NCBI RefSeq assembly: GCF_000767465.1
Contig: NZ_CP009291.1
Location: forward strand, 1,381,501 to 1,445,500
Direction of reading: 5' to 3'
DNA length: 64,000 nucleotides
Source: Novosphingobium pentaromativorans US6-1
GTDB taxonomy: Bacteria; Pseudomonadota; Alphaproteobacteria; Sphingomonadales; Sphingomonadaceae
Shown here: positions 2,655 through 17,804 of the stretch, piece after piece
Layout: every line of letters starts with the position of its first letter
Numbering within the stretch: the stretch's first letter is position 1
Position numbers and translations under genes: made by a program
The notes under the pieces: model-generated
Told to the model about the DNA's origin: nothing
Databases searched by the model: none
What the model saw: only the letters and a program-made list of their open reading frames with translations

Positions 2655-3557
2655 TCAGTTCGCGACCGGCGCTGCGGGCATCTGCGCCGGGTCCAGCGAC
2701 GGCAGCACGAAGTTCCTGCCGCCGATCAGGTCACGGCCCAGCCAGTAAAGCGTCTTCGGGCTCTTGATCGCGCGCTTGAGCGAATAGGGCAGCCAGGCTT
2801 CGCCATAGGGAATGTACAGCCGTGCCCCGGCCCCGTAAGGCGCGCCTTCGCGCAGGGCAGCCTCGATAGGCAGCGGATAGACGAACTCCTGCTCGAACGG
2901 CGTTCCCGCCTCGGCAAGGATGCGCATGGCCTCTCGCGCAAGCGGCGCATCGTGGGTGGCGACGCCCACGAAGGCGGCCTTTCCGGCAAGACGCCTGATG
3001 ATGCCGAGGTACCCTTCGCGCAAGTCGATACCGGGATGGTCGGGATCGATCCACTCGCCCTTGACCACCCGCACGCGCACGCCCAGCTCGATAGCGCGGT
3101 CGGCATCGCGCAGGCTGCGCTTCCAGCGACCGGGGATGGCAAGGCCGACACCCTCGCGCGGATAGCGCTCGAGAGCCTTGAGCGTGTCGTCCGTCTGCGG
3201 CGGCGCGTGGGCATCGAATATGACCGGAGCACCGACCTCGCGGGCCTGCGCGACGACTTGTTCGACCAAGTCCTCCCGCTCCTTGAGCGCGGGCAGTTTG
3301 GCGGCGAGCGCGCCATTGATGCGGCCCTCGCCGACCAGCGAGAGGATCCTCGAATATTCGCGCACGACAATTTCGGGGTCTTCGGTTCCGTCGTTCCAGT
3401 AACACAAGGTGCAGCGCAGGTTCTGCTGGCCGGCACGCAAGGCCAGCTCGGCAGCATCTTCCAGAGTTTCGCCGGCCACGTACTTGCTGGTTGCCCGCTT
3501 CAGAACCGGACCGAGAATGGACTTGAGAGCTTCGCGCATCGTTCCCCGCAAATACAT
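2655..3557 (-). CDS. proline dehydrogenase family protein (stand-alone PRODH fold)
   Basis: This 300-residue protein is close to the size of a monofunctional proline dehydrogenase. In order it shows RVRVVKGEWIDP (compare RLVKGAYW), FVGVATHDAPLA (compare ATHN), EQEFVYPLP and ARLYIPYGEAWLPY (compare the YVPYG loop). These are the core strands of the FAD-dependent PRODH barrel that oxidises proline to pyrroline-5-carboxylate. There is no signal peptide. A CTLCYW segment near residue 52 is unusual. The genome also encodes PutA at the right edge of this window, so this copy is either redundant or acts on a related imino acid. The annotated ATG is the first of two (MYLRGTM); the second, six codons in, is an alternative start. 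Confidence 0.75.
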   Translation of the reverse strand: MYLRGTMREALKSILGPVLKRATSKYVAGETLEDAAELALRAGQQNLRCTLCYWNDGTEDPEIVVREYSRILSLVGEGRINGALAAKLPALKEREDLVEQVVAQAREVGAPVIFDAHAPPQTDDTLKALERYPREGVGLAIPGRWKRSLRDADRAIELGVRVRVVKGEWIDPDHPGIDLREGYLGIIRRLAGKAAFVGVATHDAPLAREAMRILAEAGTPFEQEFVYPLPIEAALREGAPYGAGARLYIPYGEAWLPYSLKRAIKSPKTLYWLGRDLIGGRNFVLPSLDPAQMPAAPVAN

Positions 3558-5241: not shown

Positions 5242-6081
5242 TCAGGCGCCGTCGGTCGTGCTGACGTTCACGCCCAAGCTGGCCGAACCGCTGGCGCCTT
5301 CCTTCGAGGCCGAGCCACTGCCCGAACCCGATGCGCTGGAGCTGGCATTACCGGCCGAAGCATTGGCCGAACCGCTGCCGTTACCGCTTGCCTGGGTGCT
5401 GGCAGCCGTGCTGGCGGCGTTGCCGGCCGCGTCACGAACCTGCGATCCCAGTGCGGTGGCCCGATCGCGCACGGCGCCGACCGCACTACCGGCGGCATCT
5501 GTCAGCTGCGAAGCCGATGGCGCCGAGCCGACCGGCAGGTCCGTAGAACCGGTCAGGGCCGAGTTCGCCGAACCGGAAGCCGAGCCGCTCGTGCCCGAGC
5601 CATTGGCGGAACCCGAAGCCGCCCCGGTCGCCGACCCCATGGCGTTGCCGCTGGCCGAACCGAGCGCACCCTTGGCGCCGCCCACCGCGTTGCCGGCGGT
5701 ATCACGCGCGGTACCGACAAGGCCGGTGGCGCGGTCGCGGGCATTGGCGGCGGCACTAGTGGCCTTGCCGGTCAATGCGGAAGCGTCCGGCGCGGAAACA
5801 TCGGGAGCCGTGACCGACTTGGAGGCCGACGCCTCGCCCGAGCCGTTGACGGTGGACGTCACGGTGCGGCCGGCGCGCGAAACCCCGATGTCGCCCATGG
5901 CGCTACCGGCGCCGCCAATGGTGCTGCCGACGCTCCCGACGCTCCCGCCAAGGGTTCCGCCGATCGAGCCGCCGAGGCCGCCCCCAAGGCTGCCCCCGCC
6001 AAGCAACTGGGCATTGGCTGCGCCCGGCAGGGCGACGAGTGCCAGGGTAGCGATTGCAGTTGCGAATGTGAGCTTCTTCAT
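5242..6081 (-). CDS. secreted low-complexity Ser/Gly/Ala/Asn-rich protein
   Basis: The start at 6081 gives a classical signal peptide, MKKLTFATAIATLALVAL ending near ANAQ, preceded by a strong GGAAGGAG ribosome site. The frame is open further upstream but without a better start. The mature part (about 255 residues) opens with a glycine-rich LGGG/IGG/LGG stretch, and then holds two related helical motifs, ARDRATGLVGTARDTAGNAV and VRDRATALGSQVRDAAGNAA, separated by SGSA-type linkers. The composition suggests a disordered or repeat-built envelope protein. No known family is recognised. Its promoter shares the motif found at the sigma and protease genes, so it is probably a target of that ECF sigma factor. 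It could be a structural surface protein or a protease substrate. Confidence 0.75.
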   Translation of the reverse strand: MKKLTFATAIATLALVALPGAANAQLLGGGSLGGGLGGSIGGTLGGSVGSVGSTIGGAGSAMGDIGVSRAGRTVTSTVNGSGEASASKSVTAPDVSAPDASALTGKATSAAANARDRATGLVGTARDTAGNAVGGAKGALGSASGNAMGSATGAASGSANGSGTSGSASGSANSALTGSTDLPVGSAPSASQLTDAAGSAVGAVRDRATALGSQVRDAAGNAASTAASTQASGNGSGSANASAGNASSSASGSGSGSASKEGASGSASLGVNVSTTDGA

Positions 6082-6150
6082 GATCTTGCTCCTTCCTTTG
6101 CTTTCCTTCCCTTCGGCGTGAACCTTGCCTCGGGGGTCTCTGGTGGAAGG

Positions 6151-6176
6151 AACGGATGGCACTTTGCCTTTCATCC
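6151..6176 (-). promoter_or_regulatory. ECF sigma promoter of the low-complexity protein gene
   Basis: Read on the minus strand, GGATGAAA (6176-6169) is followed after exactly 14 bases by CGTT (6154-6151). The same arrangement occurs on both strands in the sigma/protease intergenic region. The start codon lies 69 bases downstream of CGTT. Confidence 0.65.
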
Positions 6177-6218
6177 GCGCGGGGGCCGATTTTTTTGAAA
6201 GTTTTTTGACTTTGTCGG

Positions 6219-7466
6219 TCAGGCGCCCTTACGGCAGGCCCCGCAGAGCACCCCGCGCCCGGTCCGGCCCGATCCATCGACCGCCTCTGAATCGACCGCT
6301 TTGAGCGCCGCTACGGAGCTGCCGAGGCGCGGATACCGGGCCGCAATGCGGGCCGCGGCAAGCGGCGCGGCAAAGGAGGTCCCGCGCAAGGGTATGCGCC
6401 CCCGGCCGGGCACCAGCGCAGACATGTCCGCTCCCGGAGCCGCGTAATCGAGATGCAGCGCCTTGCCGGCCTCGATCAGGACGCGGCCCTTGCCATCGAC
6501 CCCGGTCACGGCAACGACGCCCGGGTAACTGGCCGGGTAGGCCGGGGGCGCCGCGGCGCCGTCATTGCCCACGGCCGCGACCACGACCATGCCGTGCGCA
6601 CGCGCTGCGGCAATGGCTTTGGCGAGCAGCAGGTTTTTCGGGCCGACCAGGCTGATCGAGACCACCGGCACGGCGTTCTGACGCATCCAGCCGATTGCCT
6701 TGGCAATCGCCAGCGCATTGCCGCCAGCCGGGTCGTCTCCATAGACGTCCGCGCCATAGAGCCTTGCCGTTCCGGCACCGGCAAGGAGCGAGGCGATCGC
6801 CGAAGCATGTTCGCTGGCCTTGGGCGCCCCTTCGGCAAACCCGCGCTGGCTGGCCAACCGGTCGGACCCGGCGATCCCGCCGTCGATCACGCCAACGGTC
6901 CCGCCCAGTGGCAGGTCTGCCCTCGCGGCGGACGATGCGGCCACGCTCAACGCGCTGCCGGACGGAAAATGTATCTGGTCAGCCGTGATTTCGCGCTCGG
7001 GAAGCAGCTTGCGCAGGGACCGGATCGCCTTGCCCAGCGAGCGGCCGCCCGGCACCGACAACCGTGCATAGGCAAGGCCGAGACCTTCGATAGTTCCCTG
7101 TTCGATCACTCCATAACCCGCGCCTTCGGCCCGGGCGACGTCCTCGCCGGCCGGATCGATCAGGAGCACTTCCCCGCGCCGCGCGGGCGCGCCGGTGTCG
7201 TCGAGTTCCACCGTCTCCCGGTTGCTGCGGGCAAAGCGGGTCAGGCGCTGCACCCGTTCTCGCGCGAGGCTGCGGGCACTTCGCGCCACATCGCGCACCG
7301 GCTCCAGCGCGTCGCGGGCGATATCGCCCAGATCCTGCGTCACCTGCCCCAGGGTGCCCAGCGGATTGCCGGGCAACGGCAGGCCCAGCTGCGCGCGCGC
7401 CGGACCTGCGATCAGCAGGAGCACGGCCGATACAAGGGCGCATCGCTTGAGGTTCCGGGTCTTCAT
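6219..7466 (-). CDS. S8 family (subtilisin-like) serine protease, exported
   Basis: Starting at the ATG at 7466, the protein has 415 residues and a signal peptide (MKTRNLKRCALVSAVLLLIA, cleavage near PARAQ). The catalytic set is complete: Asp195 in GVIDGGIA, His220 in KASEHASAI, Asn301 in AAVGNDG as the oxyanion residue, and Ser364 in GTSFAAP. Residues 40-80 form a charged helical region rich in ARD/VRD motifs that resembles parts of the neighbouring low-complexity protein and may act as a pro-region. The C-terminus has a CGAC pair. It is transcribed divergently from the sigma factor gene through a palindromic promoter region. It is likely periplasmic or secreted, and may process envelope proteins under control of the sigma factor. 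Confidence 0.88.
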   Translation of the reverse strand: MKTRNLKRCALVSAVLLLIAGPARAQLGLPLPGNPLGTLGQVTQDLGDIARDALEPVRDVARSARSLARERVQRLTRFARSNRETVELDDTGAPARRGEVLLIDPAGEDVARAEGAGYGVIEQGTIEGLGLAYARLSVPGGRSLGKAIRSLRKLLPEREITADQIHFPSGSALSVAASSAARADLPLGGTVGVIDGGIAGSDRLASQRGFAEGAPKASEHASAIASLLAGAGTARLYGADVYGDDPAGGNALAIAKAIGWMRQNAVPVVSISLVGPKNLLLAKAIAAARAHGMVVVAAVGNDGAAAPPAYPASYPGVVAVTGVDGKGRVLIEAGKALHLDYAAPGADMSALVPGRGRIPLRGTSFAAPLAAARIAARYPRLGSSVAALKAVDSEAVDGSGRTGRGVLCGACRKGA

Positions 7467-7499
7467 GGTCTTGTCCGATAACAAAAAAGATAGCACTCA

Positions 7500-7533
7500 G
7501 GGATGAAACGTTCCCGTCCATCCGTTTCATCCC
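7500..7533. promoter_or_regulatory. palindromic divergent ECF promoter region
   Basis: GGGATGAAACG (7500-7510) and CGTTTCATCCC (7523-7533) are a perfect 11-bp inverted repeat around a 12-base spacer. Read rightward it gives GGATGAAA (7501-7508), 14 bases, CGTT (7523-7526), and then the sigma ATG 23 bases on. Read leftward it gives GGATGAAA (7532-7525), 14 bases, CGTT (7510-7507), and then the protease ATG 40 bases on. The palindrome therefore lets one motif serve both directions, and implies sigma autoregulation. Confidence 0.7.
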
Positions 7534-7549
7534 CAGGCAAGGCAATTCG

Positions 7550-8047
7550 ATGAGCACGACACGCTTCTGCGAGGAACTGACAGCGCTGCTGCCGCGATTG
7601 CGGCGGTTTGCGCGCGGATTGACACAGGACAGTGCCGATGCCGACGACTTGTGCCAACAGACGATCGAACGGGCGCTGAAGGCCCGCCAGCAGTGGCAGG
7701 AAGGCACGCGGCTCGATGCTTGGGTATACAGGATCATGCGGAACCAGTGGATAGACGAAGTCAGGGCAAGAACGCGCCGGTCGCAGACTTTCGTCCATGA
7801 GGACGAAGGCGCGAACGTGGGCGTGGCCGGCGACAGGGACGCGGAGAACCGTGTGGAACTCGGCAATGTCGACCGGGCCCTGCAGCGCCTGCCCGAAGAA
7901 CAGCGCGAGGCGGTCGTTCTCGTGATGGTCGAAGGCTTCGGCTACAAGGAAGCTGCGCAGATTCTCGGCATTCCGCAAGGAACGCTGACCTCGCGGCTGG
8001 GACGCGGGCGCGAAGCCCTTTTGCGCGAACTGGGAGAAGCGGCATGA
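7550..8047 (+). CDS. ECF-type RNA polymerase sigma factor
   Basis: This 165-residue protein has a sigma region 2 with DADDLCQQTIERALKA and WVYRIMRNQWIDEVR (about residues 24-75). Region 4 has a helix-turn-helix around LPEEQREAVVLVMVEGFGY and AAQILGIPQGTLTSRLGRGR (about 115-158). Region 3 is missing, as in extracytoplasmic-function sigma factors. Its stop overlaps the anti-sigma start in an ATGA, so the two are translationally coupled. The upstream promoter carries the same GGATGAAA-N14-CGTT motif as two neighbouring genes, which supports positive autoregulation. The inducing signal is unknown. Confidence 0.92.
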   Translation: MSTTRFCEELTALLPRLRRFARGLTQDSADADDLCQQTIERALKARQQWQEGTRLDAWVYRIMRNQWIDEVRARTRRSQTFVHEDEGANVGVAGDRDAENRVELGNVDRALQRLPEEQREAVVLVMVEGFGYKEAAQILGIPQGTLTSRLGRGREALLRELGEAA

Positions 8048-8817
8048 AGGTGACCGACGAAGAGCTGATGGCCTATGCCGACGGCGAGCTTTCGCCGGTC
8101 GACGCTGCGCGGATCGAAGCCGCGATCGCTTCCGATCCCGACCTCGCCTTGCGACTCGATGCCGAACGCAAGCTGCGGGCGGCCTTGCGCGGCCATCTCG
8201 ATCCCGTTGCCGAGGAGCCCGTTCCGGACGCCTGGAAGGAAATGATCGCCGCCGCGGCCGAAGAGGACGCGCAGGCCGAGGAACGCAAGGTCGTGAGCCT
8301 TGCCGCCGCGAGGGCCGAAAAGGCGAAGAAAGCCGCGCAGGAAGCCAGGGGGACGGCCCGGGCGCGCCCGTTCATGCAGCGCTGGGGCACCGGCGTCGCC
8401 ATTGCCGCTTCGCTGGCCCTGGGGGTGTTCATGGGCACCCAGCTTACGCTCAAGGGCCCGGTAACCGACCGCGATGGCACGCTTGTGGCCTCGGGCGCGC
8501 TGGAACGCGGGCTGGACACCCAACTGGCCGCTGCGAGCGACAAGGGATCGCTCCAGATCCTGACGAGCTTTCAGCGCGGCGACGGCGACTACTGTCGCGT
8601 CTTCGCTTCCGGCGGCACCTCCGGTATCGCCTGCAAGGACGATCACGGCTGGGTGCTCGAACGCACGATCAACGGCGGGGCGCGGCAGGGGACCGAATAC
8701 CGGCAGGCGGGCTCGGCCAATTCCGAACTCATGGCCGCCGCGCAGGACATGGCCAAGGGCGCCCCGCTCGACGCGGAGCAGGAGAAGGCTGCGAAAGCGA
8801 ATGGGTGGAAGGACTAG
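8044..8817 (+). CDS. membrane-anchored anti-sigma factor
   Basis: This 257-residue protein starts with DEELMAYADGELSPVDAARIE, the usual N-terminal helix of transmembrane anti-sigma factors that binds the sigma factor. No HxxxCxxC zinc motif is present, so it is not a ZAS-type protein. A single membrane segment lies at about residues 114-136 (GTGVAIAASLALGVFMGTQ). A charged, probably coiled Ala/Glu/Lys-rich linker (66-105) precedes it, and about 120 residues follow on the periplasmic side. Two cysteines, in DYCRVF and GIACKDD, could form a disulfide in that domain. It overlaps the sigma gene by four bases. Release of the sigma factor probably needs proteolysis or a conformational signal from the periplasm. 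Confidence 0.85.
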   Translation: MKVTDEELMAYADGELSPVDAARIEAAIASDPDLALRLDAERKLRAALRGHLDPVAEEPVPDAWKEMIAAAAEEDAQAEERKVVSLAAARAEKAKKAAQEARGTARARPFMQRWGTGVAIAASLALGVFMGTQLTLKGPVTDRDGTLVASGALERGLDTQLAAASDKGSLQILTSFQRGDGDYCRVFASGGTSGIACKDDHGWVLERTINGGARQGTEYRQAGSANSELMAAAQDMAKGAPLDAEQEKAAKANGWKD

Positions 8818-8933: not shown

Positions 8934-9722
8934 TCAGATTGCCGTTCCGGCCTCCAGCACTGCCACCGCGGCGTCTTCGGGTCGGGCCATGGCCCGACCG
9001 ATCAGCAGCAGCGCGGGCCCGTCTCCCAGCGCGGTGCGGGCGGCAAGAGGGAGCAGGTCGAGGCGGGTATGGAAATGGCGTTCCTGCGGCAGGCTGGCGC
9101 TTTCGACCAGGGCAACCGGTGTATCGGCGGGAAGACCGGCCTCGATCAGTCTGGCCGAGACTTGCGGGGCCGCCGCCTTGCCCATGTAGACAGCGAGCGT
9201 GCCTTCCGGATCGGCAAGTCGCGACCAGTCGAGCTGCAGCTCCTCTCCGGCGCGCGCATGAGCGGTCACGAAAGTCAGCTTGCGGGCAAGACCGCGCAAG
9301 GTCAGCGAGGCGCCAAGGCTGGCCGCCGCTGCGCTGGCGGCGGTCACGCCCGGGCAAATTCGCACGATAACGCCCGCTTCGCGGCAGGCGTCGAGTTCCT
9401 CGGTGGCGCGGCCGAAGATTGCCGGGTCTCCGCCTTTGAGACGCACGACTTTCTCTCCCTGCAGCGCGGCTTCGACAATCAGCCTGTCGATCGTGCCCTG
9501 GTCTTTCGAGTGGCGACCGGATCGCTTGCCGACATGGACGAGGCGTGCCGAGCGCGCGGCCATCTCGAGAATCTCGGGACCGACCAGGGCGTCATAGAAG
9601 ACCACGCTGGCCTCGCCGATCAGGCGTTCGGCCTTGCGCGTCAGCAATTCGGCATCGCCCGGACCGGCACCGACCAGCCATACCGATCCGGCCGGGAAGT
9701 CCCCTTTGAACACATCGGTCAT
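8934..9722 (-). CDS. cobA: uroporphyrinogen-III C-methyltransferase (SUMT), nitrate-cluster copy
   Basis: This 262-residue enzyme of the tetrapyrrole methyltransferase fold has VWLVGAGPGDAELLT at the start, VVRLKGGDPAIFGR in the middle and CPGVTAASAAAASLGASLT around residue 125, the SAM-binding and active-site loops of SUMT. It makes precorrin-2 (S-adenosylmethionine-dependent methylation of uroporphyrinogen III), the first step to siroheme. It is the last gene of the nitrate cluster and overlaps the 3' end of nasA by four bases. Its product would feed the siroheme nitrite reductase NirB. There is no fused CysG-type dehydrogenase/chelatase domain. A second SUMT gene precedes cysI at 54758. 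Confidence 0.93.
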   Translation of the reverse strand: MTDVFKGDFPAGSVWLVGAGPGDAELLTRKAERLIGEASVVFYDALVGPEILEMAARSARLVHVGKRSGRHSKDQGTIDRLIVEAALQGEKVVRLKGGDPAIFGRATEELDACREAGVIVRICPGVTAASAAAASLGASLTLRGLARKLTFVTAHARAGEELQLDWSRLADPEGTLAVYMGKAAAPQVSARLIEAGLPADTPVALVESASLPQERHFHTRLDLLPLAARTALGDGPALLLIGRAMARPEDAAVAVLEAGTAI

Positions 9723-12298
9723 TCTGCAGCTTCCCTTTCAAGCGTCGAACAGACTTCCAGCAACCGGGCAATCGCCGGCCGGCACGATCCGCAGTTGGTG
9801 CCTGCGCGGGTGCAACCGCCCACTTCGGCCACTGTCGCCGCGCCCTCGTTGACCGCCAGTTCGATGTCCTTCTCGCCCACGCCGTGGCAGACGCAGACGA
9901 TCGGACCGCGATCCGGCAAGGGCGTGCTGGGGCGTCCGGCAAGCAGTTCTGCCGTGCTAGCTTCGTCAAGGCCGAGCTGGTCGGCCACCCAGCCGCGCGA
10001 GGGAAGTTCGCCCGAGCGGGTGAGATAGGCTGCGGCAACGAGCGAGCCCCCTTCCCCGCGCACCGCGATGCGGCGCATGCCGCGCGCAATGTCGGCGACT
10101 TCCAGCCGTTCGCCGTCGGGCAGCAACGCGCTGATGTCGATCGCCCCTTCGCCCGCGAGTTCATAGAGCCAGCCCGCCTTGATGCGCGAACGGGTCCAGT
10201 ACAGCAGTCCCTCGGGCGCGATGACGTCACCGCGCACGACGAAGGCCCGCCACGCGGGCGAAAGGGCGACGACACGCGCGGCGCCGTTCTTGAATCCGGG
10301 TTGGCCGGAAACGGGATCCACCGCCTGTGAGGGCAAACGGTTGGAGCGCCCTTCCCCGGCCATGGCGTCGGTCCAGTGCATCGGCACGCAGACTTCGCCG
10401 CGGCGTTGCCCCGTGGACACCTGAACCCGATAGACTGCCGATCCGCTTGCCGTCTCGACCCTGCCGAGGCCGCCATCGACAAGGCCGAAGGTTTCGGCAT
10501 CGGCGGGATGCACTTCCAGCAGCGGCTCGGGACGGTGCTGCGAAAGCGTGGCCGACAGACCGGTGCGCGTCATCGTGTGCCATTGGTCGCGATAGCGCGC
10601 GGTGTTTAGACGCAGCGGGAAATCGGCGCTCGTCACCGGCGCCGGTGGCCGCACCGACACGAGCCGGGCCTTGCCGCTCTCCGTAGGGAAGCGCCAGGCC
10701 AGCGGCCGCTCGCCGCCCCACTGGAACGGCTCCATCGCTTCGTAATCATCGTCGCTCAGCCGGGCATGATGCGTCAGGTCGAGGACCTTTCCGCGCGCCT
10801 TGGAAAGCGACGTCATGAGCGCGTATTCACGGAAGATCTGCGCAGGCTTGTCCCAGGCGAAACTCTCCGCCCAGCCCATCCGCGCCGCGACGTCGGCCAT
10901 GATCTTCCAGTCGGCGCGGGTCTGCCCCGGCGCAGCGAATAGGGCACGCTGGCGGCTGACGCAGCGTTCGGAATTGGTGACGGTGCCGTCCTTCTCTCCC
11001 CAGCCATGCGCAGGCAGGCGGACGTGGGCGAACCTGGCCGTGTCGGTATCGGCAATGATGTCGGAGACGACCACGGTCGGGCAACGCGAAAGTGCTTCGC
11101 GCACGAATTGGCTATCGGGCAGCGAGACGGCCGGATTGGTGGCCATGACCCAGAGGAACCTGATCTTGCCCTGATGAATGGCGCGGAACATGTCGACCGC
11201 CTTGAGGCCGGGCCCGGCGCATATGTTGGGCGCGGCCCAGAAGGCCGAGACATCGGCGCGTTCCTGCTCGGAAAATCCGAGATGGCACGCGAGCGTGTTG
11301 GCCAGTCCCCCCACCTCGCGACCACCCATTGCATTGGGCTGGCCGGTGATGCTGAACGGCCCCGCGCCAATCCGGTTGATCCGGCCTGTCGCGAGGTGGA
11401 AGTTGATGATCGCATTGCCCTTGTCGGTGCCGCCTACCGACTGGTTCGCCCCCTGGCTGAACAGGGTGACCATGCGCGGATGCTCGGCAACGATATTGCA
11501 CAGCTTGGCAAAGAGTCCCGGGGTTACGCCGGGATCGCAGTCAAGCCCATCCCAGAAGCCGGCGTCGGCTTCGACCCGATCGCGCAGGAATGCAGGGTCC
11601 AGCTTGCCGCGCCGGTTCATCTCGGCCAGCAGGGCGTTGAACAGCGCGGTATCGCCATCGGGGGCGATCGGCACGTGCAGGTCGGCCTGTTCGGCTGTCT
11701 CGGTACGGCGCGGATCGATGACCACGATCTTGGTGCCGCGCCGCTCGCGCGTCTTCTCGATGCGCTGCCAGACGACCGGGTGGCACCAGGCGGTGTTCGA
11801 GCCGACCAGCAGGACAAGGTCGGTGGCGTCCAGATCCTCGTAAGAGCACGGCACGACATCCTCGCCGAAGGCGCGGTTATGGGCGGCCACTGCGCTCGCC
11901 ATGCAAAGCCGCGAATTGGTGTCGATATTGCCGCTGCCGACGAAGCCCTTCATCAGCTTGTTGGCGACGTAATAGTCTTCGGTGAGCAATTGTCCCGAGA
12001 CATAGAAGGCGACGCTTTCGGGCCCGTGCCGGGCGATGCAGTCGCTCATCCGGTCGGCGACGAGATCGAGCGCGTCGTCCCAGCTCGCCTCGCCCTGGCC
12101 GATCATCGGCCTGAGCAGGCGGCCCTCCAGCCCTACCGTCTCGGCAAGGTGGGTGCCCTTAGAGCATAGCCGGCCGCTGTTCGCCGGATGCTGCCGATCC
12201 CCGACGATGGCGACCCCCCGATCACCATCGCCGGAAACCTCGGCAGTGATGCCGCAGCCTACTCCGCAATAGGCGCAAGTCGTGCGGATCACCTTCAT
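9719..12298 (-). CDS. nasA: assimilatory nitrate reductase, catalytic subunit with C-terminal BFD-like domain
   Basis: The 859-residue molybdoenzyme starts with TCAYCGVGCGITAEV followed by RLCSKGTHL, the four-cysteine 4Fe-4S site of periplasmic/assimilatory nitrate reductases. The molybdopterin domains follow, with segments such as NTNSRLCMASAV (a candidate Mo-ligand region), TNPAVSLPD and the C-terminal dinucleotide-binding part with LNTARYRDQWHTMTRTG. Residues 800-850 form a BFD-like 2Fe-2S domain with CVCHG and CGSCRPAIARLL, typical of the NasA/NasC type that takes electrons from an NAD(P)H partner. No signal peptide is present, so it is cytoplasmic. It reduces nitrate to nitrite for NirBD. 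It begins six bases after the nirD stop. Confidence 0.93.
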   Translation of the reverse strand: MKVIRTTCAYCGVGCGITAEVSGDGDRGVAIVGDRQHPANSGRLCSKGTHLAETVGLEGRLLRPMIGQGEASWDDALDLVADRMSDCIARHGPESVAFYVSGQLLTEDYYVANKLMKGFVGSGNIDTNSRLCMASAVAAHNRAFGEDVVPCSYEDLDATDLVLLVGSNTAWCHPVVWQRIEKTRERRGTKIVVIDPRRTETAEQADLHVPIAPDGDTALFNALLAEMNRRGKLDPAFLRDRVEADAGFWDGLDCDPGVTPGLFAKLCNIVAEHPRMVTLFSQGANQSVGGTDKGNAIINFHLATGRINRIGAGPFSITGQPNAMGGREVGGLANTLACHLGFSEQERADVSAFWAAPNICAGPGLKAVDMFRAIHQGKIRFLWVMATNPAVSLPDSQFVREALSRCPTVVVSDIIADTDTARFAHVRLPAHGWGEKDGTVTNSERCVSRQRALFAAPGQTRADWKIMADVAARMGWAESFAWDKPAQIFREYALMTSLSKARGKVLDLTHHARLSDDDYEAMEPFQWGGERPLAWRFPTESGKARLVSVRPPAPVTSADFPLRLNTARYRDQWHTMTRTGLSATLSQHRPEPLLEVHPADAETFGLVDGGLGRVETASGSAVYRVQVSTGQRRGEVCVPMHWTDAMAGEGRSNRLPSQAVDPVSGQPGFKNGAARVVALSPAWRAFVVRGDVIAPEGLLYWTRSRIKAGWLYELAGEGAIDISALLPDGERLEVADIARGMRRIAVRGEGGSLVAAAYLTRSGELPSRGWVADQLGLDEASTAELLAGRPSTPLPDRGPIVCVCHGVGEKDIELAVNEGAATVAEVGGCTRAGTNCGSCRPAIARLLEVCSTLEREAAE

Positions 12299-12303
12299 GG
12301 CGA

Positions 12304-12672
12304 TCAGGCCGCCGCCCGGGTCTGGGCGGTATCCGTCTCGCCTGTGCCGATAACGGCGGAACGCAGCAGGTAGATGCGCCCGGCATCGACCTTGAGCGGA
12401 ATGGTCGGGACGCAGCCCTCGTCATCGCCCAGCGCCTTGCCGCTGCGCAGCGAGATGTTCCAGTTGTGCAGCGGGCAGGTCACGACGTCACCGTGGACGA
12501 TGCCCTGGCTGAGCGGCCCCTGCTTGTGCGGGCACTTGTTGCGCAGCGCGAAGAATTCGTTGCGCATCGTGTGGAACACCGCGATTTCCTCGCCCCCTTC
12601 CACCGGAAGGGTGCGCGCGGTGCCGGCTTCGATCTGCGAGATCGGTCCGATATCAAGCCAGTCGCCGATCAT
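12304..12672 (-). CDS. nirD: nitrite reductase small subunit, Rieske-type
   Basis: The start MIGDWLDIGPISQIEAG gives 122 residues, the usual length for NirD. Its ATG overlaps the nirB stop by one base (TAATG), so the subunits are coupled. The Rieske fold has both ligand pairs intact: CPHKQGP and CPLHNWN. The frame is open further upstream, but that stretch is antisense-like and overlaps nirB. NirD is the partner of NirB in cytoplasmic NAD(P)H-dependent reduction of nitrite to ammonium. Confidence 0.93.
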   Translation of the reverse strand: MIGDWLDIGPISQIEAGTARTLPVEGGEEIAVFHTMRNEFFALRNKCPHKQGPLSQGIVHGDVVTCPLHNWNISLRSGKALGDDEGCVPTIPLKVDAGRIYLLRSAVIGTGETDTAQTRAAA

Positions 12673-15191
12673 TATGCCTTCTCCAGTTCCAGGGCCATGT
12701 CCAGCGGACGCACGGTGGCGATGTGGGCGTGCAGGTCCTTTCGGTCTCCCGCGGCCCGCTTGGCCCAGGGATCGTCCTGCATGAATTGCTGCGAATAGAG
12801 GAACCGGGCGGCGTAGGTCCGGACGGCGCCATCCTCGGCCAGCTTGTCCTTCACGTATTCGAGCCCGACCCGTTCGACCCAGGGAGCTGTGCGCTCGAGA
12901 TAATGTGCTTCCTCCCGGTAGAGCTGAATGAAGGCAGCGCACATCTCGAGCGCATCTTCCTCGCTATCGACCTTGCAGAGCAGGTCGGTCGCGCGGACCT
13001 TGATGCCGCCATTACCGGCGATGTGCAGTTCGTAGCCGGAGTCGACGCAGACGACCCCGAAGTCCTTGATCGTCGCCTCGGCGCAATTGCGCGGGCAACC
13101 GCTGACGGCGATCTTGAACTTGTGGGGCATCCACGAGCCCCAGGTCATCCTCTCGATCTTGACGCCAAGCCCGGTCGAATCCTGCGTACCGAAGCGGCAC
13201 CATTCGGAACCGACGCAGGTTTTCACCGTGCGCAGCGACTTGCCGTAGGCGTGGCCCGAGACCATGCCGGCGGCATTGAGGTCGGCCCAGACGGCAGGCA
13301 GGTCTTCCTTCTTGATGCCGAAAATGTCGAGGCGTTGTCCGCCGGTCACCTTGACCATCGGCGCGTTGTACTTCTCGACGACATCGGCAATCGCACGCAG
13401 TTCGGTGGGGTTGGTAAGCCCGCCCCACATGCGCGGGACGACCGAGTAAGTGCCGTCCTTCTGGATATTGGCATGAAGGCGTTCATTGACGAAGCGGCTC
13501 TTCTGGTCGTCTTCGTATTCGCCCGGCCACGCGCAGAGCAGATAATAGTTGAGCGCGGGGCGGCACGAGGCGCAGCCATCCGGCGTCGTCCAGTGCAGTT
13601 CCTGCATGACCTCGGGAATGACCTTGAGCTGCTTCTCCACGATCAGCTTGCGTACGTCGTCATGGGTAAAACTGGTGCACTTGCACATCGTCTTCGGGCC
13701 GCTCTCGACTTCGCCGCCCAGCGTCACCGCCAGCAGGCTTTCGACGAGGCCCGTGCACGAACCGCAGGAGGCCGAGGCCTTGCAGCCGCTGCGCACGGCA
13801 TCGAGCGAGTGTGCCCCGCCGGTGATGCACTGGACGACGGCGCCCTTGGAAACGCCGTTGCAGCCGCAGATCTCGGCATCGTCCGAGAGGGCAGCAACGG
13901 CGGCGTTAGGGTCCGCGAGCGCACCCCCGGACGCGAAGGCCTGGCCGAAGATCAGGGCCTCACGGATTTCGGAAACATCCTCGCCCTTCTTCATCAGGTC
14001 GAAGTACCAGGAGCCGTCGGCAGTATCGCCGTAAAGCACTGCGCCCAGGACCTTGTTGTCCTTGACGATGACGCGCTTGTACACCCCGCGCGAAGCATCG
14101 CGCATGACGATGTCCTCGCAGTCCTCGCCGCCGGAGAAATCCCCGGCCGAGAACAGGTCGATCCCCGAGACTTTCAGCTTGGTCGACGTGACCGAGCCTT
14201 CATAGCCGGTCGGGCTCTCGGTAACGAAGTCGGCCAGGGCACGGCACATGTCCCAGAGCGGCGCGACGAGGCCGTAGCACATGCCGCGGTGCTGGACGCA
14301 TTCGCCCACGGAGAGGATCGCCGGATCGGACGTGACCATGTGGTCGTCGACCATGATGCCGCGCTCGACCTCGAGGCCGGCGGCGCGGGCAAGGCCGGTG
14401 GCCGGGCGGATGCCGACGGCCATGACGACGATGTCGGCCGGGATCTCGGTGCCGTCATCCAGCATGACCCCGGCGACCTTGCCGTCCTTGCCGAGGATTT
14501 CCCTGGTATTCGCGCCGGTCAGGATGGTCTGGCCACGGCGTTCCAGCTCGGTCTTGAGCAGCCAGCCGGCTGCCTCGTCGAGCTGGCGTTCCATCAGCGT
14601 GGGCATGAGGTGGATGACCGTGACCTTCATCCCGCGCAGCGAGAGGCCGTGGGCCGCTTCGAGGCCGAGCAGGCCGCCGCCGATGACGACGGCATTGCCG
14701 CCGCCCCTGGCGTTGCCGGCTTCGGCCGCACCGAGCATCTTGTCGACGTCATCGAGGTCGCGGAAAGTAACGACGCCATCGAGGTCCTTGCCCGGCACGG
14801 GAATGATGAAGGGATCGGAGCCGGTGGCGATCAGCAGCCGGTCGTAGGGTTCGGCGCGGCCGGACGCGGAAATCACCGTCATCGCCTCGCGGTCGATGTG
14901 ATCGACCTTGTCGCCCGAGATCAGCGTGATGCCGTTATCATCGTACCATTGCTGGGTATTGATGACGATTTCGTCGAAGGTCTTCTCACCGGCCAGAACC
15001 GGAGAAAGCATGATGCGATTGTAGTTCACCCGCGGCTCGGCGCCGAAAATGGTGATGTCGAAGCGCTTCGGATCGCGCGCCAGGATTTCCTCGACGGCGC
15101 GGCAACCCGCCATGCCGTTGCCGATTACCACGAGCCTTTCCCGGCCCTGGCCGGGAAGGTCGCCCTTCTCGAAGTTCATCGGTGCATTCAC
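12672..15191 (-). CDS. nirB: nitrite reductase [NAD(P)H] large subunit
   Basis: The protein opens with an FAD-binding Rossmann motif (VVIGNGMAGCRAVEEIL) and a second dinucleotide site (VVIGGGLLGLEAAHGL). Two BFD-like 2Fe-2S regions follow (CGCNGVSKG with CGSCTG, and CKCTSF with CASCRPAL). Then come nitrite/sulfite reductase domains with CVGSEWCRFG and SGCPRNCAEA binding the 4Fe-4S/siroheme centre. Two starts are possible. A GTG at 15191 has GGAG seven bases upstream and gives 839 residues. The ATG at 15179 has no ribosome site. I chose the GTG. The gene heads nirB-nirD-nasA-cobA and lies behind a leader with an intrinsic attenuator, consistent with NasT control. Confidence 0.93.
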   Translation of the reverse strand: MNAPMNFEKGDLPGQGRERLVVIGNGMAGCRAVEEILARDPKRFDITIFGAEPRVNYNRIMLSPVLAGEKTFDEIVINTQQWYDDNGITLISGDKVDHIDREAMTVISASGRAEPYDRLLIATGSDPFIIPVPGKDLDGVVTFRDLDDVDKMLGAAEAGNARGGGNAVVIGGGLLGLEAAHGLSLRGMKVTVIHLMPTLMERQLDEAAGWLLKTELERRGQTILTGANTREILGKDGKVAGVMLDDGTEIPADIVVMAVGIRPATGLARAAGLEVERGIMVDDHMVTSDPAILSVGECVQHRGMCYGLVAPLWDMCRALADFVTESPTGYEGSVTSTKLKVSGIDLFSAGDFSGGEDCEDIVMRDASRGVYKRVIVKDNKVLGAVLYGDTADGSWYFDLMKKGEDVSEIREALIFGQAFASGGALADPNAAVAALSDDAEICGCNGVSKGAVVQCITGGAHSLDAVRSGCKASASCGSCTGLVESLLAVTLGGEVESGPKTMCKCTSFTHDDVRKLIVEKQLKVIPEVMQELHWTTPDGCASCRPALNYYLLCAWPGEYEDDQKSRFVNERLHANIQKDGTYSVVPRMWGGLTNPTELRAIADVVEKYNAPMVKVTGGQRLDIFGIKKEDLPAVWADLNAAGMVSGHAYGKSLRTVKTCVGSEWCRFGTQDSTGLGVKIERMTWGSWMPHKFKIAVSGCPRNCAEATIKDFGVVCVDSGYELHIAGNGGIKVRATDLLCKVDSEEDALEMCAAFIQLYREEAHYLERTAPWVERVGLEYVKDKLAEDGAVRTYAARFLYSQQFMQDDPWAKRAAGDRKDLHAHIATVRPLDMALELEKA

Positions 15192-15219
15192 GTCACGTCT
15201 CCGTTCGCAACGCGCACAC

Positions 15220-15266
15220 AAAAAAACCGCCTCGTGCCTGTTCCCGATCGGGAAAGGTACGGGCGG
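15220..15266 (-). terminator. leader attenuator in front of nirB
   Basis: On the minus strand CCGCC (15266-15262) pairs with GGCGG (15231-15227), followed at once by seven T (15226-15220). The loop contains the palindrome TTCCCGATCGGGAA. The flanks GCCGCCCG and CGAGGCGGTTTTTTT are identical in the nrtA leader. It ends 29 bases before the nirB start, so read-through is needed for expression. Confidence 0.75.
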
Positions 15267-15311
15267 CGTCGTTGCCACGCGTCTGTAAATCTGAAGGCGA
15301 GGCGCTCAATT

Positions 15312-15327
15312 CGTCCAACGGTGGACG
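15312..15327 (-). promoter_or_regulatory. ANTAR-type hexaloop hairpin, nirB leader
   Basis: CGUCC-ACCGUU-GGACG forms a 5-bp stem with a six-base loop carrying A at position 1 and G at position 4, the signature of RNA targets of ANTAR antiterminators. It lies 45 bases before the attenuator, exactly as in the nrtA leader. The expected second hexaloop is not clear here. The following segment folds only imperfectly. Confidence 0.6.
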
Positions 15328-15501
15328 GACGCTTTCTCGCTTGGGCTTGTTTAACCGATTCGCCGTGCGCGGCGCAAGACGGTTTTTTGCAGTGCAGCAG
15401 GAAAAGGTTGATTATACATATAAATCAGATGTTTATGATTACAGATCGGCCTTGCCCCGGATGGAATGGCGGTGGAAAGGCGAACAGTCTGAACCTGGCG
15501 A

Positions 15502-15532
15502 CCGTCACCCTGAAACGAATTCAGCATGACGG
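15502..15532. repeat. REP-like hairpin after cynS
   Basis: CCGTCA (15502-15507) pairs with TGACGG (15527-15532), and inside it CTGAA pairs with TTCAG around a five-base loop. On the minus strand this follows the cynS stop by about 20 bases and may terminate or stabilise that transcript. Its sequence resembles the common GTCATGCTGAA repeats. Confidence 0.5.
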
Positions 15533-15552
15533 CCGACCTGTGGTAGTTCCCC

Positions 15553-15996
15553 TTACCAGCTCTTGTAGGGAAGGAACTTGCCCGACATCTTCACTTCGAT
15601 GCGATCGCCCTTCTCGTTGGGGATCTTCTCGACGGTCATGTCGAAGTCGATGGCGCTCATGATGCCATCGCCACCCTTTTCCTGAATCAGTTCCTTCAGC
15701 GTTTCGCCATAGACGCCGACAATCTCGTAGAAGCGGTAGATGCACGGATCGGTGGGGACGGTCGCCTCGAACATCTTCTTGGGATATTCGGCCAGCACGA
15801 CCGCTGCCTCCTGCGGCAGGCCCAGGCCTTTAGCAACCTTGTCGGCGCTCTCGCGCGGAAGCGAATTCATGCCGAGGCATGCCGACGTCACGAAGACTTC
15901 CTGCATCCCGGCCATCTCGGCGATCTGCGCCCAGGTCACGCCGCCAGCGCGCTTCTTTTCATAGATCATGTCGGTGACATCGGCCTTGGTCATCAT
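15553..15996 (-). CDS. cynS: cyanate hydratase (cyanase)
   Basis: This 147-residue protein has the cyanase core. An N-terminal helix-turn-helix-like domain (WAQIAEMAGMQEVFVTSACL) precedes the catalytic segment CIYRFYEIVGVYGETLKELI, carrying the active-site Arg and Glu, and GDGIMSAIDF with the catalytic Ser. It converts cyanate and bicarbonate to ammonia and CO2. Its start overlaps the stop of the PP2C-kinase gene (ATGA), so it belongs to the same transcript as that gene and fnt. This places cyanate use inside the nitrate cluster as another nitrogen source. A second ATG directly follows the first (MMTKADV). Confidence 0.95.
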   Translation of the reverse strand: MMTKADVTDMIYEKKRAGGVTWAQIAEMAGMQEVFVTSACLGMNSLPRESADKVAKGLGLPQEAAVVLAEYPKKMFEATVPTDPCIYRFYEIVGVYGETLKELIQEKGGDGIMSAIDFDMTVEKIPNEKGDRIEVKMSGKFLPYKSW

Positions 15997-17804
15997 TCCG
16001 GGATCTCCTCGGTTCTGGGGGTGGAAACTCTATTGGCGCTGCCATGACTAGCGCCAGGCTCGCGCTCGTTGCCGCGTGTCGCGATGGACAGGGCAAGGGC
16101 CAGCGCCAGGGCGGCGCTGATCGCCTGCCACAAGCGTTCCGGTCGCCGAGCCAGCCAGGGACGCGGCGGCGGCGCGGCAAGCGCGGTATTGGGATGGGCA
16201 AAGTCGTACGTGAATTCGGACAGTTCTTCGTAGCGATCCGCCGGATCGAGCGCGAGTGCCCGTGCCAGTGCGGCATCCATCCAGTCGGGCACTTCGGGGT
16301 TGATCTCGCTCGCCGGGATATAGGCCAGCTTCCTCTGCGCCGCCCGTGTACGCGCGGCGCTGAGACGCACACCGTAGGGAAGGCTGCGGGTCAGCATGAA
16401 ATAGGCGATTGCGCCAAGCGACCACAGATCGGACTTCCGGCTTGCGCCAGCGCCCAGCCATATTTCCGGCGCAGTGAACTGCATGGTCCCGGCGAACATC
16501 GCGTCCTCCGCCCGCGGCGCCAGCTCGTCGAGCCCGGCCACGAGTGCGGAGCCGAAGTCGATGATCCGGGCCGTCCCCTCACTGTCGACGATGACGTTGG
16601 CGGGTCGCAGGTCGCGATGGAGGATCTCTAGCCGATGAAGCGCCTGCAGGCCGGAGGCGACCTGCTTCACGATCGAACGTATGGCCACAAGGTCGGTGGT
16701 CCCGGACTGGAACCCGACCCAGTCTTCCAGGGTCGCGCCTTCGAGAAATTCGGTAACCGCATAGGCATGTCGGCGAGACGCTCGCGCAGCGGGCGCGCCC
16801 AGAACGTGCGTATTCCTGACGCGCCGCGCGATCCATTCCTCCAGCATCAGGCGGCGCAGCTCTGCCGGATCCGCACCATTTTCGGTGGAGGGCACCTTGA
16901 TCGCCACCCGCTGCCAGGTCTCATCATCGCGCGCGAGATAGACGTGGCTGCGATGCCCGGCATGCAGCTCGCGCAGGACCGTGAAGCCTTCGAAATCCTG
17001 CCCGGCAATCAGATGCGGCGCAGGCGGCAGCGCCGCCTCTTCCCCCGCAAGATCGTCCAGGTCGCTTTGCGGCAAGTCCTCCACGCGAAGGATCTGGACC
17101 GTGAGATTGTCCTCGCTGCCTGCCGCCAGCGCGGCATCGGCGAGGAAGCGCGCCGCCGCGTCGAGGTCCTCTCCCCTCGCCGCCTCGAGGAAGGCAGTGT
17201 CGGGCAGCACGTCGTGGACGCCGTCGCTCGTCAGGATGAAGATGTCGCCCCTCGCCACCGGCACCTTGCGGCGGTCGATCTCGACGCGCCTGTCGATCCC
17301 GAGCGCGCGGGCAAGATAACTCTCCCCCCCGCCCAGATAGACGCGGTGCGGTTCGGTCAGCGGCTCGAGGACCGAGCCGGCGACCCGCGCCACGCGCGCA
17401 TCGCCGACATGAAAGACGTAGGCCGAGCGCGACTTGAGAACCAGCGCCGAGAGCGTGCAGACCATGCCCCGCTCGCGCTCCCCGTCGGACAGGTTCGTGC
17501 CGCGCCCCTTGAGGTTCTGCGCGTGCATCCAGGAATTCGTCGCAGAGATCACGCGGGCCGCGCTGGTCTGGACCGACCAGGCTTCGGAGGTCGCGAAATA
17601 GTCTGTAAGGAAGGACTTTACCGCGGTCTCCGCCGCTGCCGCGCCCAGCGCGCTCGTGCTGATCCCGTCCGCCAGGGCAAGGGCCACGCCCTTGGTCCAC
17701 AGTTCCTCGCCATCGGGAACCAAGGCGCCATGGAAGTCCTGGTTCGCCTCCTTGGTTCCGGCCGTCGAATACTGGCCGATGGTTACGGCAAGCTGGTTTC
17801 GCAA
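15993..17804 (-). CDS. bifunctional PP2C phosphatase / Ser-Thr protein kinase, membrane-anchored
   Basis: Residues 1-245 form a PP2C phosphatase with KEANQDFHGA, ALADGISTSALG, FHVGDARVAR, ILTSDGVHDVL and GSEDNLTVQI, covering the metal-binding aspartates. Residues 265-520 form a Hanks-type kinase with VAIKVPS (ATP lysine), HRDLRPANV (catalytic loop, with Arg where Lys is usual), IDFGSAL and APEIW. A single membrane helix near residues 565-585 (AISAALALALALSIA) leaves a short tail. The domains would face the cytoplasm. It is embedded between fnt and cynS, overlapping cynS by four bases. A similar kinase lies in the Pseudomonas aeruginosa nirBD locus (PA1782, from memory). Likely substrates are transporters or regulators of nitrogen uptake, but none is known. 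Confidence 0.88.
   Translation of the reverse strand: MRNQLAVTIGQYSTAGTKEANQDFHGALVPDGEELWTKGVALALADGISTSALGAAAAETAVKSFLTDYFATSEAWSVQTSAARVISATNSWMHAQNLKGRGTNLSDGERERGMVCTLSALVLKSRSAYVFHVGDARVARVAGSVLEPLTEPHRVYLGGGESYLARALGIDRRVEIDRRKVPVARGDIFILTSDGVHDVLPDTAFLEAARGEDLDAAARFLADAALAAGSEDNLTVQILRVEDLPQSDLDDLAGEEAALPPAPHLIAGQDFEGFTVLRELHAGHRSHVYLARDDETWQRVAIKVPSTENGADPAELRRLMLEEWIARRVRNTHVLGAPAARASRRHAYAVTEFLEGATLEDWVGFQSGTTDLVAIRSIVKQVASGLQALHRLEILHRDLRPANVIVDSEGTARIIDFGSALVAGLDELAPRAEDAMFAGTMQFTAPEIWLGAGASRKSDLWSLGAIAYFMLTRSLPYGVRLSAARTRAAQRKLAYIPASEINPEVPDWMDAALARALALDPADRYEELSEFTYDFAHPNTALAAPPPRPWLARRPERLWQAISAALALALALSIATRGNEREPGASHGSANRVSTPRTEEIPE

Follow-up and report, generated by a model that had tools for sequence, protein, structure and literature searches.

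The locus described here raises the question of which regulator reads three copies of one promoter-like motif, GGATGAAA-N14-CGTT, that lie around a sigma factor gene. A first-pass annotation had taken all three for promoters and proposed a local regulon in which the sigma factor drives its own operon and two neighbouring genes. We examined the 64-kb stretch of DNA that contains the locus (the window), the host genome and related genomes. From these comparisons it is very probable that the three sites are promoters of an autoregulated ECF sigma factor encoded at 7550-8047, and that they belong to a regulon with an interlocked bidirectional promoter. The features of the locus are the following.

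7501..7532, no strand: predicted interlocked bidirectional promoter, GGATGAAACG-N12-CGTTTCATCC, from direct reading and conservation
7501..7526, plus strand: predicted promoter of the sigma/anti-sigma operon; -35 GGATGAAA at 7501-7508, -10 CGTT at 7523-7526, start site putative
7507..7532, minus strand: predicted promoter of the S8 protease gene; -35 at 7532-7525, -10 at 7510-7507
7550..8047, plus strand: ECF sigma factor, 165 aa, regions 2 and 4 only, from Pfam, NCBIfam and solved structures
8044..8817, plus strand: anti-sigma factor, 257 aa, zf-HC2; its start overlaps the sigma stop (ATGA)
6219..7466, minus strand: S8 (subtilisin-family) serine protease, 415 aa, predicted to be exported; PF00082, triad motifs
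6151..6176, minus strand: predicted single-direction promoter of the class C gene; -35 at 6176-6169, -10 at 6154-6151
5242..6081, minus strand: class C protein, Gly/Ala/Ser-rich, 279 aa; signal-peptide-like start, then QLLGGGSLGGG

A direct scan of the window found exactly three matches to GGATGAAA-N14-CGTT, at 7501-7526 (plus strand), 7532-7507 (minus strand) and 6176-6151 (minus strand), confirming the positions and the 14-base spacing given by the first-pass annotation. The annotation was also right that the window holds no fourth copy, since allowing spacers of 10-20 bases added no match within it, and the distance from the motif to the start codon, put at 23-69 bases, measured 23 bases from CGTT to ATG for the sigma gene, 40 for the S8 gene and 69 for the class C gene. 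The mean number of matches expected by chance in the window was 0.01, and none of 100 dinucleotide-preserving shuffles reached three. The whole genome (5.46 Mb) contains five exact copies and no copy of the reversed pattern. A chance origin of the motif was ruled out by the shuffles, the reversed-pattern control in the genome and the cross-genome counts given below. The two exact copies beyond the window lie on contigs C2 and C4. The copy on C2 precedes the gene of an exported barrel-like protein (E), homologues of which have the motif in several other genomes. The copy on C4 (124810-124835) sits within an open frame, has no recognised target and may be either a chance occurrence or an unknown regulon member.

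The sigma factor matched Pfam Sigma70_r2 (1.2e-16) and Sigma70_r4_2 (1.1e-16), the NCBIfam family sigma70-ECF (3.6e-27; 95 bits against a curated cut-off of 42.9) and solved ECF sigma structures (best 1.3e-24). ECF sigma factors have regions 2 and 4 only and about 160-200 aa, as does this protein with its 165 aa, and the gene of a cognate anti-sigma factor adjoins at 8044-8817. The anti-sigma factor matched zf-HC2 (3.3e-05; 24.3 bits against a cut-off of 22.2), and its most hydrophobic 19-residue stretch begins at residue 118; its profile gave nothing significant against solved structures. The protein lacks an N-terminal H-x3-C-x2-C motif because its only two cysteines are residues 184 and 197, both of which are invariant in an alignment of 43 anti-sigma sequences (42 of them drawn from the best 120 of 405 homologues). 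When narrow regular expressions were applied to a set of 67 homologous loci (see below), 32 anti-sigma loci were retrieved, of which 30 had the cysteine pair and none had H-x3-C-x2-C.

The S8 protease matched PF00082 (3.8e-15) and subtilisin chains (best 6.6e-17) and contains the catalytic motifs VIDGG (193), EHASA (219) and GTSFAAP (362); the triad was present in 18 of the 19 loci that narrow regular expressions retrieved from the same 67. Its signal-peptide-like start suggests that the protease is exported. Among named genomes, Novosphingobium mathurense has the closest relative of the locus, with an S8 protease that is 90% identical, which makes it very probable that the window comes from Novosphingobium. 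The class C protein contains 61 Ala, 56 Gly and 50 Ser residues among its 279 aa, and the copy in the window matched no Pfam family above the cut-off. Two neighbouring regions may be mentioned here. A 300-aa frame at 2655-3557 (minus strand), for which Pfam gave no match with an E of 1 or less, resembles in our view a proline dehydrogenase. The cluster at 8934-17804, which adjoins the regulon and includes a cobA-like methylase, is presumably a nitrate/nitrite assimilation cluster, with molybdopterin oxidoreductase-like and nirB-like genes plus a PP2C-kinase-like frame.

The two divergent copies of the motif are not independent, because they come from reading a single inverted repeat on its two strands. 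Positions 7501-7532 form a 32-bp inverted repeat, perfect in the window, with 10-bp arms and a 12-bp spacer, in which the CGTT (-10) of either direction overlaps the last two bases of the opposite -35. All three promoter copies that had been counted are thus present, but they represent two independent objects, the repeat and the single site at 6151-6176.

Anti-sigma homologues were found in 88 of the 249 genomes of the family. We counted as having the anti-sigma gene the 71 genomes with a match of E 4.5e-19 or better, and counted the 17 with weaker matches (1.4e-10 or worse) as without. From 66 of the 71 genomes we took 68 loci and dropped one (L192), which lies at a contig end and has no sigma gene. 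The loci were selected by their anti-sigma match, so that the presence of the anti-sigma gene in all 67 reflects this selection. Their sigma factors are 45-68% identical to that of the window, and in 66 of 67 the best-matching S8 gene is divergent. The repeat, called present when at least 17 of its 20 arm positions matched, was found in 64 of the 67 loci, where it adjoins the ECF sigma/anti-sigma operon with a divergent S8 protease gene, and its spacer is 12 bases in 64 of 64. Since each of these repeats places the motif upstream of the sigma gene, autoregulation is predicted for 64 of the 67 loci. The repeat was also found at all nine named related loci.

When the window is added to the homologous loci, the information content is 1.49-2 bits at 18 of the 20 arm columns, whereas 11 of the 12 spacer columns hold less than 0.6 bits, the exception being column 19 with 1.1 bits. 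Most of the variation in columns 5 and 28 is between two bases, and a GGAT/GGAA difference described below lies in columns 4 and 29. Among the three loci that lack the repeat, it is degenerate in L168, where the S8 gene is not divergent, has one side only in L169, and is missing altogether in L184, which has a distant sigma factor. In most loci the gap between the sigma and S8 genes (estimated) ranges from about 32 to 137 bases, and the repeat is nonetheless kept; it is kept as well in both copies of the locus in one genome (G071) and in copies from other families.

The single site upstream of the class C gene is conserved too. Of the 67 loci, 59 contain it, with a median distance of 1353 bases to the sigma start, and so do nine of nine named relatives; scans for the opposite orientation and for a reversed control gave no site in any of the 67. 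Conservation at orthologous loci, on which the first-pass annotation had staked its reading, therefore holds for the repeat and for the class C site alike. A Gly/Ala/Ser/Thr-rich frame follows 57 of the 59 sites, and the frames downstream of the other two have AQILGGGG after a signal-like start. Several class C homologues (L067-L088) have a terminal stretch that was PRC barrel-like in the one copy scanned (weak, E 0.015); the copy in the window seems to be without such an end.

Across the family, the motif follows the anti-sigma gene. The form GGATKAAA-N14-CGTT (K = G or T, position 5) has 199 copies in the 71 genomes whose anti-sigma match is strong, 66 of which contain it, compared with 52 copies in 44 of the 178 genomes without such a match, eight of which hold two or more; a reversed control gave 4 and 19 copies, respectively. 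Such a scan of the genome and its relatives had been proposed in the annotation, and the enrichment of the motif with the anti-sigma gene gave a Fisher p of 1.9e-24, a value that ignores relatedness. Weaker or paralogous systems may account for part of the excess of 52 over 19 copies in the genomes without a strong match. One genome (G232) has four identical copies of a single motif instance (on C13, C38, C50 and C55), which suggests a repeated element carrying the motif by chance.

We also searched with the repeat pattern (W at position 4) alone. Order-wide, it matched in 65 of 296 genomes, all of them from the window's own family, and in none of the 83 genomes from other families. Class-wide, it matched in 5 of 385 genomes, two from the own family and three from two other families. 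Each of the three matches outside the order is flanked by a sigma gene (49-58% identical) on one side and a divergent S8 gene (39-42%) on the other, and two newly matched genomes of the family that were checked (L221 and L223) had the same arrangement of sigma and divergent S8 genes. A relative of the same genus (G111) contains a second interlocked repeat, of the GGAAGAAACG/CGTTTATTCC version, at C1:1598737-1598768. Its surroundings include a weak match to the anti-sigma factor (1597498) and a homologue of E (1600543); this is apparently a paralogous system.

Two further families of predicted regulon members, D and E, came from motif searches in 30 genomes with the anti-sigma gene. D is an exported protein of about 115 aa, whose gene often lies just past the anti-sigma gene and whose profile gave nothing significant against solved structures. 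E is a barrel-like exported protein of about 270 aa; of two copies scanned for domains, one gave a borderline match to YadA_anchor (22.8 bits against a cut-off of 22.7) and the other matched nothing. The host genome has its E gene at 694560-695372 of contig C2, 171 bases downstream of the motif, and D was judged absent from it (best E 0.25), in agreement with the family-wide search. The regulon is not strictly local, because its predicted member E lies on C2.

For both families an upstream motif was scored at a spacer of 14 with exact CGTT and at least 6 of 8 positions in the -35. For D, counting all 45 match rows, the motif stands upstream of 26 of the 29 copies that come from anti-sigma genomes and of none of the 16 that come from the other genomes, a comparison weakened by the fact that the D homologues without an anti-sigma gene are also more distant. 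Three D copies in anti-sigma genomes are without the motif: G001 and G108 each have a second copy that lacks it, as does the D match in G021, which is weak. In the case of E, the motif precedes 9 of 20 copies in genomes with the anti-sigma gene, leaving 11 without it, and 0 of 10 genes in genomes that lack it (of the 34 match rows, three were omitted as further fragments of genes that had already entered the count). The opposite orientation was absent from the 240-base windows upstream of D and E and occurred at 1 of 30 D loci in 400-base windows. Outside the sigma locus the 30 genomes have 13 exact copies of the motif, five of which precede D or E and eight of which have no recognised target.

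The -35 of the predicted promoters is GGATKAAA, or GGAAGAAA in the genus g43. In three g43 genomes the -35 reads GGAAGAA, not the GGAT type, at the sigma, C and D promoters, and the S8 promoter has the GGAA form in two of the three; the S8 side of the remaining genome (G122) is GGACGAAA. The order-wide scan added six g43 genomes with GGAAGAAACG on both sides, and another g43 genome (G430) has one arm of each kind. This coordinated change from GGAT to GGAA is best explained by a regulator shared by these promoters. No residue of sigma region 4.2 that would match GGAA in g43 was diagnostic by eye.

Taken together, motif conservation, co-occurrence with the anti-sigma gene, orientation and the coordinated -35 change support the prediction, also made in the annotation, that the sigma factor drives all three units. 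We propose that the anti-sigma factor, whose periplasmic part probably holds the cysteine pair, would keep the sigma factor bound until its release by an envelope signal. The released holoenzyme would then read GGATKAAA-N14-CGTT. The mirror-symmetric interlocked copy would drive the sigma/anti-sigma operon rightward and the S8 protease gene leftward, and plain copies would drive the low-complexity exported protein C (6151-6176), the barrel-like exported protein E (on C2) and, in relatives, the exported protein D of about 115 aa. Positive autoregulation, start points at these sites and an envelope-stress type response with an exported-protein output are what we infer from this arrangement. The S8 protease could be an effector, a processor of C or a cutter of the anti-sigma factor.

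Each -10 lies partly inside the opposite -35, so that two holoenzymes should not fit the repeat at once; from this geometry of one polymerase at a time, the two directions would be expected to compete. A tentative reading, which we consider somewhat doubtful, is that the interlocked repeat is a selected regulatory device in at least three families of the class, that of the window among them: a single 32-bp site would be bound by a single sigma factor in either orientation but not in both, each initiation would yield either sigma/anti-sigma or protease, and the ratio would be set by the -35 variants (GGATGAAA or GGATTAAA) and the spacer. The chances are even that the overlap of the divergent promoters has instead no regulatory role and is an accident, kept since doubly used bases cannot drift. 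The arm bases serve two promoters, and purifying selection together with common descent would keep the geometry. In addition, five E. coli bidirectional promoters tested in the part of PMC12825309 that we draw on had basal activity too low for polymerase competition. The persistence of the repeat over gaps of different length, in both G071 copies and in other families speaks against an accident, but it is not decisive because common descent explains it as well.

That some other sigma factor reads these promoters, for example EcfG of the general stress response, is very unlikely. The EcfG promoter of Sphingopyxis granuli TFA is GGAAC-N16-CGTT as given in the accessible portion of PMC7083833, close to the present sites in its -10 CGTT and core spacing, and close paralogues could cross-talk. 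However, the -35 of EcfG is GGAAC, the motif tracks the cognate anti-sigma gene and not the family at large, and the change from GGAT to GGAA is common to linked and unlinked promoters of the same genomes. Neither nepR nor phyR is among the six neighbouring proteins scanned, and the anti-sigma alignment profile gave a non-significant match to NepR (E 0.084).

Least credible of all is a palindromic operator at 7501-7532 that would serve a dimeric repressor or activator, with the promoter likeness secondary. The 10-bp inverted repeat would suit such a protein, being perfect in the window and kept in perfect or near-perfect form at 64 of 67 loci. An operator, however, should keep both half-sites at all sites, and none of the 104 non-repeat sites of C, D and E (for which CGTT and 6 of 8 positions in the -35 were the search criterion) does so: they have only the -35 and the -10 in common, TNATCC never follows CGTT, and CG stands at positions 9-10 in only 20, so that the mirror arms belong to the opposite promoter. 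Moreover, the C, D and E sites point towards the gene, and no regulator besides the sigma and anti-sigma factors was recognised among the genes scanned, from 5242 to 8817.

The predicted promoters of the ECF sigma factor make up a sharply defined and testable regulon, with a common regulator proposed for three families of exported proteins whose domain assignment is borderline or lacking altogether. The 20-base signature of the repeat was sufficient, as a pure DNA pattern, to pick out the locus in other families of the class. If the repeat is a selected device, it would couple feedback to effector output. The interlocked promoter offers a clean natural case in which to ask whether competition between polymerase orientations balances feedback and output in a sigma circuit. 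A literature search did not find a description of the motif or the module, which is weak evidence since subscription journals were mostly outside its reach, and its only match to the motif letters together with sigma terms concerned Clostridioides difficile.

The system resembles autoregulated ECF (group IV) sigma factors with a co-transcribed anti-sigma factor in its two-domain sigma factor, in the overlapping anti-sigma gene with a hydrophobic segment and in the sigma factor's own promoter with the target motif. It differs in its predicted output, which consists of an S8 protease and of Gly/Ala/Ser-rich, small exported and barrel-like proteins. DegP is a target of RpoE in E. coli. A sigma factor with a membrane-type anti-sigma factor, and an exported serine protease in the predicted output, are features shared with E. 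coli sigma-E (RpoE/RseA), to the extent that this system is covered by the section of PMC8103513 consulted; the sigma-E protease is of the HtrA type, whereas the one here is S8.

The likeness to EcfG promoters, namely the -10 CGTT and a GGA-type -35 at nearly equal spacing (GGATK and 17 bases to CGTT here), fits an ECF sigma factor as the reader. The differences from EcfG are the -35 GGATKAAA and the adjoining zf-HC2-type anti-sigma factor with a hydrophobic segment; EcfG has 79 operons, by the same portion of PMC7083833, compared with the five promoter classes seen here. The E. coli bidirectional sigma-70 promoters, so far as the available part of PMC12825309 describes them, are pseudo-symmetric DNA on which polymerase takes two mutually exclusive orientations around one shared -10. 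In contrast, the repeat analysed here has two CGTT elements, one per strand and each overlapping the opposite -35, is predicted to be read by an ECF sigma factor and has a geometry fixed across 64 loci. An ECF regulon is a known kind of system; the conserved interlocked promoter and the uncharacterised set of exported proteins are the part that is a new variant.
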